The notes beneath the pieces were generated by a model. The model had not been told where the DNA came from, ran no database searches, and worked only from the letters and a program-made list of their open reading frames with translations. Made by a program: the position numbers and the translations under genes. Of a DNA stretch of 64,000 bases, positions 41,742 to 46,541 are shown in pieces. Positions within the stretch are counted from its first letter, which is position 1, and each line of letters begins with the position of its first letter. The DNA is from Cystobacterineae bacterium (GTDB taxonomy: Bacteria > Myxococcota > Myxococcia > Myxococcales > Myxococcaceae), in the NCBI GenBank assembly GCA_009781495.1, contig WQYA01000001.1, forward strand, positions 1 to 64,000, written 5' to 3'.

Positions 41742-42359
41742 TTAAGGTGGTGTCGGCAGGCAGCGAAGGCATTGTTTGTCGGTAACCACCCAGTGCATGC
41801 GCACGTCATGTGCCTCTTCGGGCAAATTTTCTACGAGGTATTCTTCAAAGCACAGCCCCACGCGAAGGGCTTTCATTTCGGGGGCAGCCAGGAGTTTGTC
41901 ATAAAACCCCCCGCCTCTTCCGAGGCGTGCGCCGTTTTTGGCAAAGGCGAGGCCTGGCACGAGAATCAGCTCCACATTGGCCATAGCCACAGGGGGGCAG
42001 TGGGGTTTAGGGAAGAGGATGCCATAGGGGCCTGGGGCCAAGTCCTCCAAGGAGGAGACGAGGGCGAGGGAGGGGGCATGAAGGCCAGGGGCAGGGAAGC
42101 AAGTATGTTTATGTATGCCCCAAAGTGTTTCAAACAGTTTAGAAGTAGGCACTTCAAAGGGTTGGGCGGCATAGAGGGCGACGCAGCGGGCGCTGTGCCA
42201 GTGGGGTAGGTTGAGGAGTTGGGCGAAGAGGAGGAGTCCTTTGTTGGCAATTTGCTCAGGGGGGAGGGTTTTGCGTTGGTTTAGGCAGAGGAGGCGGAGG
42301 GCTTTTTTAGGGGAGGAAGAAGAAAGCTCCCCGCTGAAGGCCGTGTGTGAAGTGTTCAT
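41742..42359 (-). CDS. 5-formyltetrahydrofolate cyclo-ligase family protein
   Basis: Converts 5-formyl-THF to 5,10-methenyl-THF using ATP, salvaging folate. The C-terminal signature VPGLAFAKNGARLGRGGGFYDKLL-type block is complete (key residues GARLGRGGGFYD), the N-terminal KKALRLLCLNQRKTL matches the Arg/Lys-rich ATP-binding start, and ALYAAQPFEVPT is present. About 205 residues from the ATG at 42359; a GTG at 42368 would add three. 6S RNA is often found next to this gene in other bacteria, but I could not recognise one here. Confidence 0.88.
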   Translation of the reverse strand: MNTSHTAFSGELSSSSPKKALRLLCLNQRKTLPPEQIANKGLLLFAQLLNLPHWHSARCVALYAAQPFEVPTSKLFETLWGIHKHTCFPAPGLHAPSLALVSSLEDLAPGPYGILFPKPHCPPVAMANVELILVPGLAFAKNGARLGRGGGFYDKLLAAPEMKALRVGLCFEEYLVENLPEEAHDVRMHWVVTDKQCLRCLPTPP

Positions 42360-42577
42360 TGAACCCACGAGAGTTCAATGGGGAAACTTGAATTCCGATG
42401 CTTTAGGCTTCCCACTGATACAGCTGAAGGCTTGCACACGACACCGAGAACAGTTTCCATTTTATACATATCGGTTCAAAGACACACTGCACATCACGCA
42501 CCCAGCAGGGAACAGCTCTAAAATTCCTCTTTACATCTATCATAGGAACCGACAATCAAGAGATCAAGAGAGGTTTC

Positions 42578-43519
42578 ATGTCCGCAGGAAAAATATTGCC
42601 GGAGAGAGTGCCCAAAGGTACGCGAATTGGCAACTATGAAATACTCAGCCTCCTAGGGCGGGGAGGGATGGCCGAGGTCTACCGAGCGCGTGCGCTGAGT
42701 GGGGCGCGTACGGGGCAAGAATTGGCGATTAAGCGTCTGTTGCCCGAGTTGGAGTCGGACTTTACGCAGCTGACATTTTTTGCTGGGGAAGCGGATTTGG
42801 CGCGGTTTTTAGATCACCCCAGCATTGTGAAGCTTTATGAAGTAGGGAGTTTAGGGGAGTCCTTTTTCCTAGTGATGGAGTTGGTAGACGGTTGTGACGT
42901 AGGGCAGATACTCAAAGCGTGTCGAGTATTGAATGTACATTGGCCTGTGGACTTTGCAGTATGTCTTGTGAGGGAGCTTTTGTTGGCCTTGGACTATGCG
43001 CACAATGCATGTGGTCCGACGGGGAAGCCCTTGGGGATAGTGCATTGTGATGTTTCGCCTTCGAATTTTTTTGTTTCGAGGACAGGGGATTTAAAGCTGG
43101 GGGATTTTGGTGTAGCGCGGGTTTTGTTGGATGGTGCGAGCAGTGAAATTCTCGGCAAGCCTTTTTATTTGTCTCCGGAGGCTTTGCGCGGACAAATTTC
43201 CCCCGCGGTGGATTTATGGGCGATGACAGTAGCTTTCTATCAACTGTTAACCTTACGTCGGCCATTTGGGGGCAAGGACACCAAGCAAGTTTTTCAATCC
43301 ATCCGCAACATTCGTTATGAGGGGATATGCAGCATTCGTCCTGAGCTTCCGAAGGCTTTGTCAGACATTATAGACAAGGCTTTTTCTGCTCGAATGGAGA
43401 ACCGTTTTGCTTCGGCCAAAGAATACGCCGAAGCATTGACGCCGCATTTGGACCCCAACATTGGCACGCACCTTGGGTTGGCGTCGATGGTGGAGAACCT
43501 TGTATTGGTGAAGGGCTAG
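42578..43519 (+). CDS. Soluble serine/threonine protein kinase with HCD catalytic loop
   Basis: A Hanks-type kinase domain with little else (313 residues) and no transmembrane segment. The glycine loop is GRGGMAEVY and the ATP-binding Lys is in LAIKRL. The catalytic loop reads HCDVSPSN (His156, Cys157, Asp158), so the Arg of the usual HRD is Cys. GDFGVAR and LSPEAL are normal. A non-RD loop usually means that activation-loop phosphorylation is not required. The gene is convergent with a Fic-like gene, their stops sharing CTAG. The 218-base gap upstream shows no obvious promoter. Confidence 0.88.
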   Translation: MSAGKILPERVPKGTRIGNYEILSLLGRGGMAEVYRARALSGARTGQELAIKRLLPELESDFTQLTFFAGEADLARFLDHPSIVKLYEVGSLGESFFLVMELVDGCDVGQILKACRVLNVHWPVDFAVCLVRELLLALDYAHNACGPTGKPLGIVHCDVSPSNFFVSRTGDLKLGDFGVARVLLDGASSEILGKPFYLSPEALRGQISPAVDLWAMTVAFYQLLTLRRPFGGKDTKQVFQSIRNIRYEGICSIRPELPKALSDIIDKAFSARMENRFASAKEYAEALTPHLDPNIGTHLGLASMVENLVLVKG

Positions 43520-44331
43520 GAGAAAAACTTAAGTGCGCTTTTCTGGCCATTGCTAATGGCGTCGACAAGCAGTCCGCGCAGGTTGGAAACAGTTCCTCTG
43601 AAGGCCTCATAATATTTTTGGCGATCCGTGGTATGGATGATGGCCGGGAATATGCCTGCACGCAGAAGGATGAGGTTGGAGAGCATTCTACCGACGGAGC
43701 CGGAGTATTCGGTGAAGGGGAAGATTTGGATGAGTTGGAATTGGAGTTGCGCGGATTGAGCGATGGGGTGCAAGTCGACAAACTCGCGTTCTGCCGCATA
43801 TTCGACGAGCTTTTCGAGGCGTGCTGAAATTTTAGAAGGCTGGGAAATTTCGTGGGAATAGGTGCGGTGCAAAGGCATGTCTCTGCGGAACCCGGCTTTG
43901 TCTTTTGAAGATTCGCGCTCCTTACGTTCTCTGCGTTCGGTTGCGATGCGAGCAGCTTGCGCCTGCGGTGTATTGCCGGACAACAAGTCGTGGATGTGTC
44001 GGATGAGGGGCAAATGAACAGAGGCGCTGGGTTTTGCAGGCGTTGTTTTGGCTTCCTGGCAGATGAAGTCAATGCAGGCCATGTGGTTGCGAATGCCCAG
44101 AATGGCCGCAATCATCGTCGCTTCATAGGGGGAAGCGCTGTTGGTTTTGGCAGCGGCTTCCAATTCTGCGGGTGAATAGACAATCCCGTCGATGGCGCTG
44201 TCGTGATAAATCCACGAGAGCCGCAAGCGTTCCATGAATGTGCGAGCTTGTTCAGGCTGACGCTCTTGCAGCTGTTTGAGTTCCTCGTTGCGTTGCTCAA
44301 TCTCTTTATAAAGTTCCTTCACAGCCTCCAA
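43516..44331 (-). CDS. Fic-fold protein with degenerate catalytic motif
   Basis: The N-terminal part has an inhibitory-helix-like segment HDSAIDGIVYS, matching the S-x-I-E-G type of class II Fic proteins with Asp for Glu. The Fic core motif, normally HPFxEGNGRxxR, reads FPFTEYSGSVGR: the catalytic His is Phe and the phosphate-binding GNGR loop is lost, although the flanking helix (LIQI and MLSNLILLRAG) is preserved. AMPylation is therefore unlikely, and the protein may have kept only binding or a different role. The start is TTG 44331 or GTG 44322, close to a GGAGG. It is 271 residues, with a charged insert (about 130-150). Confidence 0.75.
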   Translation of the reverse strand: MEAVKELYKEIEQRNEELKQLQERQPEQARTFMERLRLSWIYHDSAIDGIVYSPAELEAAAKTNSASPYEATMIAAILGIRNHMACIDFICQEAKTTPAKPSASVHLPLIRHIHDLLSGNTPQAQAARIATERRERKERESSKDKAGFRRDMPLHRTYSHEISQPSKISARLEKLVEYAAEREFVDLHPIAQSAQLQFQLIQIFPFTEYSGSVGRMLSNLILLRAGIFPAIIHTTDRQKYYEAFRGTVSNLRGLLVDAISNGQKSALKFFS

Positions 44332-45040: not shown

Positions 45041-45880
45041 TCAAATTCGGCGTTTGCTGGCTTTGCGTTGATCAGGGGTTGCAGAGGGGAATTCGACCCA
45101 ATCGCAAACATGGCAGATGCGGCTGAAGATGCGTTCGCCAATGCGCTCAACCAGCAAGTGGGGCTCTTTGCCTTTTTCCCAAAGCTCGCTGCTGGAAACA
45201 TAGTTGGCGGGCTTTTGTGGGGGGGCCAGGGTGCCCAGAGAATAGTTGGTTGCAAACAAGGTGGGTTTTTTCTCGTTATAGCGACGTGAAATCAGCTCAT
45301 CCAAGGTTTCAAGCTCAAAAGGGCTGAGTCGGCCTTTGCCCAACTCGTCGATGGCGAGCAAGTCTGCCTGGGCGAGGGGGTTAATAATTTCCCCGCCGCT
45401 TTTTCCTTCTTGGAAGCCGCGGCGGATGGCGGCATAGAGCAAAGAAATTTCAATATAAGAAGCCCTCACGCCAAACTCTAGAATGAGCTGTCGCAGGCTG
45501 GCCGCCAACAGGTGTGTTTTGCCAGTCCCGACGGGCCCAGACAGCAAAAACCCGCGTGGGACAGGGGGCTGGGAGGCATACATTTTCGCCATTTCCAAGG
45601 CGCGGCTTTGCTCATCGTTTTTGGGCCTATAGTCGCCAAAGGAGACGTTTTGAAACAGGGGGGGAATTTTGGCTGCGGCCAGCAGCGAAGCCCTGTGCAG
45701 CAGTTGGCGTTTTTTGCAGGGCCTGGCTTCCTCATAGACGCGTCCATGGAGTTTTTGTTGGGTGAGCAACAAACCGGAGCCTCTGCAATGTTGACATTGC
45801 TCAATGGCCTCTTTGAGGCGAAGGAGATCCGCCTCCTTGTCAACAGAAAACCCCTGAGTATGGCACTGCATATCCGGCAT
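45041..45880 (-). CDS. DnaC/IstB-like AAA+ ATPase, probable helicase loader
   Basis: AAA+ protein with Walker A GPVGTGKTH, Walker B LLAIDELGKG and sensor I FATNYSLG, arranged as in DnaC/DnaI helicase loaders and IstB. A Cys-rich N-terminus (CQHC, then CKK) precedes it, as in many members. The ATG at 45880, two codons after the upstream stop, gives 279 residues; the same frame is open for 94 more codons through the neighbouring gene, where its sequence is not protein-like. With no transposase nearby a loader for replicative DnaB fits better than IstB. Operon with the 218-residue protein. Confidence 0.83.
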   Translation of the reverse strand: MPDMQCHTQGFSVDKEADLLRLKEAIEQCQHCRGSGLLLTQQKLHGRVYEEARPCKKRQLLHRASLLAAAKIPPLFQNVSFGDYRPKNDEQSRALEMAKMYASQPPVPRGFLLSGPVGTGKTHLLAASLRQLILEFGVRASYIEISLLYAAIRRGFQEGKSGGEIINPLAQADLLAIDELGKGRLSPFELETLDELISRRYNEKKPTLFATNYSLGTLAPPQKPANYVSSSELWEKGKEPHLLVERIGERIFSRICHVCDWVEFPSATPDQRKASKRRI

Positions 45881-45884
45881 GTCT

Positions 45885-46541
45885 TCAGCCCCAGTTGCGG
45901 ATTCCAAAACGTTGTTTGAAGACGAATGCCAAAAAAAAGCGCCATTGCTCTTTGGCTGCCTCCAAGGACAAGGCTTCTCGCGTTTTGGCAAGCTGTCGTG
46001 TTTCTTCCAAGAGTTTTTTCTTCTCCTCTTGGGGAAGTGCGTGGGCGAGGACAAAAATGGCCAATATTTCTTGGTGCATGGCCTGGTGAATGTCGGCGGG
46101 TTTTCCAAGGTGTTCAAGGAGCCTGGAAGTTGTTTTTGGGGCCCAGGGGTGTTTTTTGGCAAAGCTTAGGAGTTGTTTTTTCAGGCGTTGGTGTCTTGTT
46201 TGCGCATAGGCCTCTGCGTTTTCATCGGTGGTTTCGGTATGGGTTGAAGGGACAGGCTGTGTGTGAATGCGCAAATAGCGGGCAATTTCACTTTCGACAT
46301 GGCGGCGGCATGTGCGAAGTGAAGGCAAGGAGAGGGTTTCATCTTGTTTGAGTCCTGTGAGGCGCGACTCAAAGCAGCGCCGCATGCCACGCGCAACCAC
46401 CTCGAAGGGGACTTGGGTTGAAGCCCAAAGCTCCAACAATTCTGCATCCAAAGGCGAGAGAGCGGCCCCGTGGCCGCGCAAAAAACAGAAGAGGGCCTGG
46501 ACTTGTTCATGGAAGCTGGCGTTTTTGGGCAGTTGACTCAT
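45885..46541 (-). CDS. Unknown protein upstream of the helicase-loader gene
   Basis: 218 residues, mostly helical and charged, with no membrane segment and no motif I recognise. The first 80 residues (HEQVQALFCFLRGHGAALS, then LELWASTQVPFEVVARGMRR) look like a winged-helix or DnaD-like domain in length and pattern, but this is only a resemblance. A Glu/Lys-rich second half includes EEKKKLLEETRQ. It ends four bases before the loader start, so the two are translated together and may act together in primosome assembly. Confidence 0.6.
   Translation of the reverse strand: MSQLPKNASFHEQVQALFCFLRGHGAALSPLDAELLELWASTQVPFEVVARGMRRCFESRLTGLKQDETLSLPSLRTCRRHVESEIARYLRIHTQPVPSTHTETTDENAEAYAQTRHQRLKKQLLSFAKKHPWAPKTTSRLLEHLGKPADIHQAMHQEILAIFVLAHALPQEEKKKLLEETRQLAKTREALSLEAAKEQWRFFLAFVFKQRFGIRNWG

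Follow-up and report, generated by a model that had tools for sequence, protein, structure and literature searches.

A Fic-fold protein without the catalytic histidine is retained across nearly the whole phylum Myxococcota

INTRODUCTION

What does a Fic protein do once the histidine of its catalytic motif is gone? The question is raised by a gene in the window, the whole 64,000-nucleotide stretch analysed here (positions 1 to 64,000 of the forward strand of contig WQYA01000001.1, assembly GCA_009781495.1, from a Cystobacterineae bacterium). A match to the Pfam Fic family is commonly taken to denote an AMPylase, and the product of this gene belongs to a phylum-wide orthologous group that is incapable of that chemistry by the known mechanism. 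The gene is retained under purifying selection even in a genome of 1.3 Mb. Myxococcus xanthus has an orthologue (strain AM003, locus L104), so that a role of a Fic pseudoenzyme in normal physiology, rather than among toxins or effectors, can be tested in a genetic model.

RESULTS

The altered Fic motif

The gene lies on the minus strand (43516..44331) and encodes a product of 271 amino acids when the TTG at 44331 is taken as the start; a GTG at 44322, three codons on, is an alternative possible start. The protein matches the Pfam Fic domain (PF02661) with 38.4 bits against a cut-off of 24 and is therefore a Fic-domain protein. It has no TPR domain in the Pfam scan and is the sole Fic above the cut-off in its own genome (G000; 2.27 Mb, 88% complete). 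Where canonical members have HPFx(D/E)GNGRxxR, the window protein reads FPFTEYSGSVGR (residues 204-215; 43687..43722, minus strand), within the wider region IFPFTEYSGSVGRMLSN. As the original prediction had stated, phenylalanine (Phe204) occupies the place of the catalytic histidine and GNGR is missing; YSGS stands there instead, with Ser210 at the motif Asn and Ser212 at the first motif Arg. The claim that the motif as a whole is lost holds for the histidine and GNGR but goes too far for the remainder, since Pro205, the acidic Glu208, Gly211 and the second Arg, Arg215, are retained. Arg215 aligns with R374 of human FICD.

An inhibitory-like helix had been described as preserved, and it is found as HDSAIDG (residues 43-49; 44185..44205, minus strand); YHDSAIDG corresponds to the inhibitory helix seen in class II Fic proteins, Asp48 replacing the inhibitory Glu. 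On the same strand lie a remade flap, RRDMPLHRTYSHEISQP (residues 149-165; 43837..43887), and an RxxYY block (residues 237-241; 43609..43623) that aligns with FICD 396-400. Directly before the flap is a charged insert of low pLDDT (about residues 121-145; 43897..43971, minus strand), which in the alignment is filled in the Myxococcaceae family sequences and gapped in most order-level members.

Conservation across the phylum and selection

Matches to the protein were found in 182 of 195 phylum genomes at E ≤ 1e-5 and in 176 at E ≤ 1e-50. A separate search at E ≤ 1e-20 also gave 176 of 195, with one match in 169 genomes and two in 7. Of the 149 high-quality genomes (completeness of 90% or more, contamination of 5% or less), 142 had a match at E ≤ 1e-50; the other seven had none at this threshold, and the gene is therefore not indispensable. 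With the family profile, members of the subfamily reach 202 bits or more, and 19 other Fic-like ORFs in the same phylum loci score at most 84 bits. The nearest named records are the metagenome-assembled genomes WQTM01 (90%) and WRKR01 (Cystobacterineae, 85%), and further relatives among the best 80 of 266 related stretches are labelled, for example, Myxococcus, Corallococcus, Archangium, Hyalangium and Anaeromyxobacter. The isolate codes suggest termite guts as a possible habitat; a study of 589 metagenome-assembled genomes from termite guts reports five Myxococcaceae, although these isolates are not named in its main text (excerpt of PMC7024585). One record labelled Comamonas sp. KCTC 72670 (BNCN01000003.1) carries an orthologue that resembles the Corallococcus and Myxococcus ones and is 50% identical to that of the window; its label is probably wrong.

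Residues were counted in 139 distinct full-length orthologues, taken from Myxococcota loci only; comparison over residues 20-200 of each matched stretch left 141 distinct sequences, from which 2 that were not full-length were dropped. Many of the 139 are closely related, so the counts do not represent independent events. The catalytic position is never His (Phe in 130, Tyr in 9), and because the residue is missing from all 139 orthologues, chance can be excluded as the cause of its absence. The motif Asn is replaced by Ser in 126 and by Thr in 9, with Asn in 3 and Ala in 1; at the first motif Arg there is Lys in 105, Arg in 20 and another residue in 14. The second motif Arg, Pro205 and Gly211 are present in all. 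Thus the motif of an active Fic AMPylase, HxFx(D/E)GNGRxxR, is absent, with only its second Arg fully kept. At the acidic place we found Glu in 95, Asp in 27 and other residues in 17, no Arg being among those listed, so the Arg characteristic of the AvrB family (R266) is absent as well. Of the stretch FPFTE...SGS, whose conservation had been put forward as a check, Phe or Tyr at the His place, the fixed Gly and the prevailing Ser at the Asn place stood up, but the final Ser did not, this being mostly Lys.

Class II Fic proteins carry the inhibitory motif (S/T)xxxE(G/N). In the subfamily an acidic residue (Glu in 123, Asp in 16) is always followed by Gly49, and His43 is likewise invariant, but the Ser/Thr place is acidic throughout (Asp in 90, Glu in 49), so the class II motif as such is not present. 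The form of this motif in HYPE is given in an excerpt of PMC8097203.

The flap is the most conserved part of the protein. Arg149, Pro153, Tyr158, His160 and Pro165 occur in all 139 orthologues and His155 in 138, giving the pattern RxxxPxHxxYxH. Its mean column information of 3.46 bits is the highest of ten segments scored, compared with 3.26 for the inhibitory helix, 3.07 each for the Fic loop and the RxxYY block, and 2.12 for the whole protein. In the RxxYY block Arg237 and Tyr240 are invariant and Tyr241 is found in 126. The position of FICD N407, which we take to be an adenine contact, is not conserved among the orthologues.

Among three congeners dN/dS was 0.092, 0.083 and 0.089, and no stop codons were found inside the matches; neither relaxed selection nor broken frames, the marks of a pseudogene, are seen. 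Since the same altered form is retained across nearly the whole myxobacterial phylum, the altered Fic protein is, on sequence grounds, very likely functional, with a job of a new kind, and not the product of a dying gene. The new role at which the original prediction had hinted gains support, the histidine being absent from every orthologue examined and selection purifying.

Predicted structure

An AlphaFold2 model of the window protein, computed from an alignment of 59 sequences (the window and related loci), had a pLDDT of 87.1 and a pTM of 0.88. It aligned with human FICD (4u0u) at Z 27.4 and an rmsd of 2.4 Å over 241 residues, and with AvrB (2nud) at Z 11.1; FICD was also the best PDB profile match of the protein (3.4e-28). 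The retained fold proposed earlier is therefore borne out by an FICD-like structure, and the protein belongs to the Fido fold as judged from a predicted rather than a solved structure. The flap region is modelled without a strand (pLDDT 64-71 for residues 141-160) and has an invariant Pro inside it. The columns of FICD V314-G317 are empty in all 139 orthologues, so a flap hairpin of the VxxG type is missing. We infer the pocket geometry and contacts discussed below from FICD by homology.

Age of the subfamily and members outside the phylum

A tree was built from 76 members, which represent 29 families, and three canonical Fics as outgroups; in it the subfamily was monophyletic with a support of 0.829. 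Twelve of the 13 multi-member families were also monophyletic, but order and class were not, which means that the deep branches are poorly settled or that there was some transfer; from these sequences, some horizontal transfer within the subfamily is possible. The subfamily appears to be old and has largely been inherited vertically, generally as a single copy per genome.

Outside the phylum we sampled 189 genomes (384 minus 195), of which 11 had a match at E ≤ 1e-20, the level down to which matches were read. Nine of these are canonical HPFxDGNGR Fics scoring up to 115 bits, and two genomes (G321 and G284) carry divergent members, both without the histidine, which may reflect transfer or a deeper origin. 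The member in G321 scores 192 bits and has the motif MPYGRFSGRLAR and a flap without the P-x-H part; that in G284 is split across two contigs, with the motif YPFSAWSGIVGR, the flap PVHRAYFQ and Gln at the His160 place. No intermediate with both the histidine and the new flap was seen among the 11 matches. The plasmid and phage collections gave one weak match each, annotated as Fic-like, and an NCBIfam scan of four Fic-fold proteins gave matches all far below the cut-offs. A literature search, whose reach excluded most subscription papers, gave no account of this subfamily among the papers listed, and judged from these listings it is undescribed so far.

Another Fic without the histidine was seen in G072 (L248; contig 12, about 105450-106073). 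It has the motif QPFSEMNARLAR together with FHEMAISGT, and with 84 bits against the family profile it falls outside the subfamily.

The neighbouring kinase and the gene neighbourhood

The Fic gene is convergent with a gene on the plus strand (42578..43519) for a Hanks-type Ser/Thr kinase with an HCD loop (PF00069, 125.5 bits). Their stop codons have CTAG in common (43516..43519, no strand assigned), exactly as had been noted. The kinase contains LAIKR, VHCD and LGDFG and so has the VAIK Lys, the HxD Asp and the DFG motif; its loop reads IVHCDVSPSN and lacks the Arg of RD kinases. HCD is found in 26 of 30 clustered kinases, the other four being different kinases, and dN/dS of the kinase was 0.03 between G000 and the congener G002. 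We conclude that it is an ordinary Hanks kinase in which HCD is a fixed trait of the orthologous group, with otherwise nothing atypical in the tests run. The CTAG overlap occurs in two of three congeners, G001 having it and G002 having 180 bp between the two genes. The two genes run convergently at every one of the 25 loci where both a called Fic gene and an HCD kinase occur. Genes for a DHH phosphoesterase and an IscS-like protein separate them in 23 of these, the window and G002 being the exceptions. The view that the kinase is atypical and a meaningful neighbour did not hold up against these counts, and a functional pair of Fic protein and kinase is unsupported.

In the window, the Fic gene, the kinase and a 5-formyltetrahydrofolate cyclo-ligase gene (41742..42368, minus strand; PF01812, 126.7 bits) are contiguous, the last serving as a syntenic marker since relatives have the same neighbourhood. 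The recurrent order in relatives is GlnE, patatin-like protein, IlvE, sometimes an AAA ATPase, the Fic gene, often endonuclease IV, DHH phosphoesterase and IscS-like protein, followed by the convergent kinase, 5-formyl-THF cyclo-ligase, YmdB-like protein and TyrS (the names YmdB, IscS, TyrS and IlvE were assigned from sequence without a family search). Genes of relatives were called by a simple script with a minimum of 60 amino acids, so that some starts or genes may be wrong; in the window the Fic and cyclo-ligase genes were added manually and one overlapping ORF was removed. In the 69 loci with a called Fic gene (7 of 76 loci without one were left out), and within fetched stretches many of which were shorter than 20 kb, the neighbours were IscS-like protein in 37, DHH phosphoesterase in 34, IlvE in 30, the kinase cluster in 27, patatin-like protein in 22, AAA ATPase in 21, endonuclease IV in 19 and GlnE in 16. 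As to a FicTA toxin-antitoxin arrangement, the recurrent neighbours are housekeeping-like, and an antitoxin shorter than the 60-residue minimum could be missed.

The AAA ATPase was found in 109 of 195 phylum genomes and is rejected as an obligate partner. Of 12 genomes searched, IlvE was found in 8, three of these matches reaching no more than 31% identity, and GlnE was found in 2; neither was found in four genomes of family f22 (1.3-1.8 Mb) that carry the Fic gene, which rules out both as obligate partners.

The stretch next to the Fic gene at 45041-46541 of the window (minus strand) holds an IstB-like ATPase (PF01695), overlapped by an upstream ORF that belongs to no clear family; the two may be a helicase-loader pair. 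At six loci from other families (L230, L232, L233, L234, L213 and L214) the Fic gene adjoins a gene of one cluster, whose member in L232 is a GTP cyclohydrolase II by Pfam.

Co-occurrence with other AMPylases

We examined a chosen set of 37 genomes for further Fic proteins at E ≤ 1e-5. The subfamily member was the only Fic in 11, namely 8 of one group of 30, 2 of a second group of 6, and the genome of the window itself; the other 26, among them the congeners G001 and G002, had additional matches. Twelve genomes, hand-picked mostly for small size, were searched for other Fic proteins, GlnE and SelO, and none of the three was found in G000, G044 and G172 (88, 89 and 99% complete). SelO turned up in 4 of 18 genomes. 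In the genus of G000, G001 and G002, whose genomes are small, neither a GlnE nor a SelO match was found. Because the subfamily member stands alone among these families in 3 of 12 genomes, its role seems to be independent of the known AMPylases, and within these three families the result argues against the protein having another Fic as its obligate regulatory target, and against its recognising AMPylated proteins.

DISCUSSION

The reading we favour, to which we would give about an even chance, is that the subfamily consists of Fic-fold pseudoenzymes that do not AMPylate and instead bind a conserved ligand or partner through the pocket and the remade flap in a housekeeping process. AMP transfer would have been lost at or before the subfamily root, in an FICD-like Fic-fold protein of the Myxococcota. 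The old nucleotide pocket (Arg215, Arg237, Tyr240, Glu/Asp48 and the loop Gly211) may still bind a phosphate-bearing or similar ligand and is presumably still kept locked by Arg215 and the inhibitory acid, and the rebuilt flap (Arg149, Pro153, His155, Tyr158 and His160) would hold one conserved partner or ligand. The protein would then act by binding, as a pseudoenzyme switch or scaffold. This is supported by the loss of the histidine from every orthologue examined, the universal presence of the R374 equivalent, the near-invariant flap, the predicted FICD-like fold, the purifying selection, and the persistence of the gene in genomes in which no canonical Fic, GlnE or SelO was found. BepC provides a precedent for a Fic domain that acts through binding (excerpt of PMC7842960). 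Some observations fit the binding reading less well: the invariant polar residues His43, His155, His160, Tyr158, Arg149, Arg215, Arg237 and Tyr240 resemble an active site more than a scaffold, neither member outside the phylum has the full flap, and there is no obligate partner gene.

The same residues make a new enzyme of the Fido fold possible, although we would not bet on it. Here His155, Tyr158 and His160 of the flap, with Arg215 and Arg237, would catalyse another transfer (glycosyl, phosphoryl or other), and the invariance of polar residues in both flap and pocket would follow. AvrB, which has the Fido fold but lacks the motif, acts as a rhamnosyltransferase (excerpt of PMC10866546), and its motif Asn is a conserved Ser (excerpt of PMC2686095), as it is in most of the subfamily. 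Engagement of the flap in FICD is described as sequence-independent and characteristic of Fic proteins (excerpt of PMC8373988), so the strict conservation of this flap needs another reason. On the other hand, AvrB depends on Arg266 (excerpt of PMC10866546), a place that is taken by Glu or Asp in 122 of the 139 orthologues. FICD too has His at the His43 and His160 places, so these residues are not novel; His155 or His160 is changed in both members outside the phylum, and no substrate gene travels with the Fic gene. In its most specific form, which we put forward tentatively and think rather doubtful, the rebuilt flap (Pro153, His155, Tyr158 and His160) took over catalysis and the subfamily is a near-phylum-wide Fido class whose members perform some housekeeping modification that has nothing to do with AMPylation.

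It is improbable that the protein is a reader that captures proteins tagged with AMP or in some other way with a nucleotide. FICD His363Ala does trap BiP-AMP, forming a long-lived complex with AMPylated BiP (excerpt of PMC8373988), and the subfamily keeps the inhibitory acid in all orthologues and the acidic Mg residue in 122 of 139. Such a reader of Fic, GlnE or SelO products is weakened by G000, G044 and G172, where the gene is present and no other member of these families was matched, unknown AMPylases being possible, and by the unconserved N407 place. A dedicated partner among the neighbours (the HCD kinase, the AAA ATPase, IlvE or the patatin-like protein) is hardly more credible. The neighbourhood is conserved to the extent counted above, yet the kinase gene runs convergently in all 25 loci, with two genes in between in 23, the AAA ATPase was not found in 86 of 195 genomes, IlvE and GlnE were found in none of the four f22 genomes with the Fic gene, and a block so housekeeping-like may persist through slow rearrangement.

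Residual AMPylation or deAMPylation without the histidine has a very small probability. The equivalents of Glu/Asp234 and Arg374 are retained, and a His-to-Ala mutant of IbpA with residual activity is cited in an excerpt of PMC4454073. Against this, of the 139 orthologues 3 have the equivalent of Asn369 and 20 that of Arg371, and the flap sequence VLVG is replaced. Classical Fic activity is unlikely, since His363 of FICD is described as essential for AMPylation, and deAMPylation is abolished when it is mutated (excerpt of PMC8373988). Finally, a decaying pseudogene among homologues that carry HPFxxGNGR, the outcome on which the original prediction would have fallen, is rejected and has next to no chance of being right, as nothing except the missing histidine speaks for it, while that residue is missing from all 139 relatives and dN/dS is 0.083-0.092.

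Among known systems, FICD/HYPE, the human class II AMPylase/deAMPylase, is alike in its fold over nearly the whole protein, in the inhibitory helix with Glu/Asp-Gly and in Arg374, Arg396 and Tyr399. It differs in that His363 is gone from the subfamily, Asn369 is mostly Ser, Arg371 is mostly Lys and the N407 place is not conserved, and the flap V314-L315-V316-G317 of FICD stands in the alignment against P-x-H-x-x-Y. The effector AvrB shares a Fido fold without the catalytic histidine and a Ser for the motif Asn. AvrB, however, has Arg at the acidic place and an inserted upper lobe (excerpt of PMC2686095), whereas the acid is mostly retained in the subfamily, and the subfamily gene, unlike that of AvrB, lies in a conserved chromosomal block. 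Doc clade D2, with Gln for His, is another case of a catalytic histidine lost clade-wide, but it is Doc-like, with the motif Qx[F/Y]x[D/E][G/V]NKR (excerpt of PMC4454073); FPFxExSGK matches none of the five consensus motifs in that section of the paper. BepC of Bartonella has a non-canonical motif and evidence of a non-catalytic Fic role (excerpt of PMC7842960), but its motif retains His and GNGR, and BepC is an effector that is secreted and has a BID domain. The flap of BepC can be exchanged without loss, whereas the flap of the myxobacterial subfamily is the part most strictly kept.
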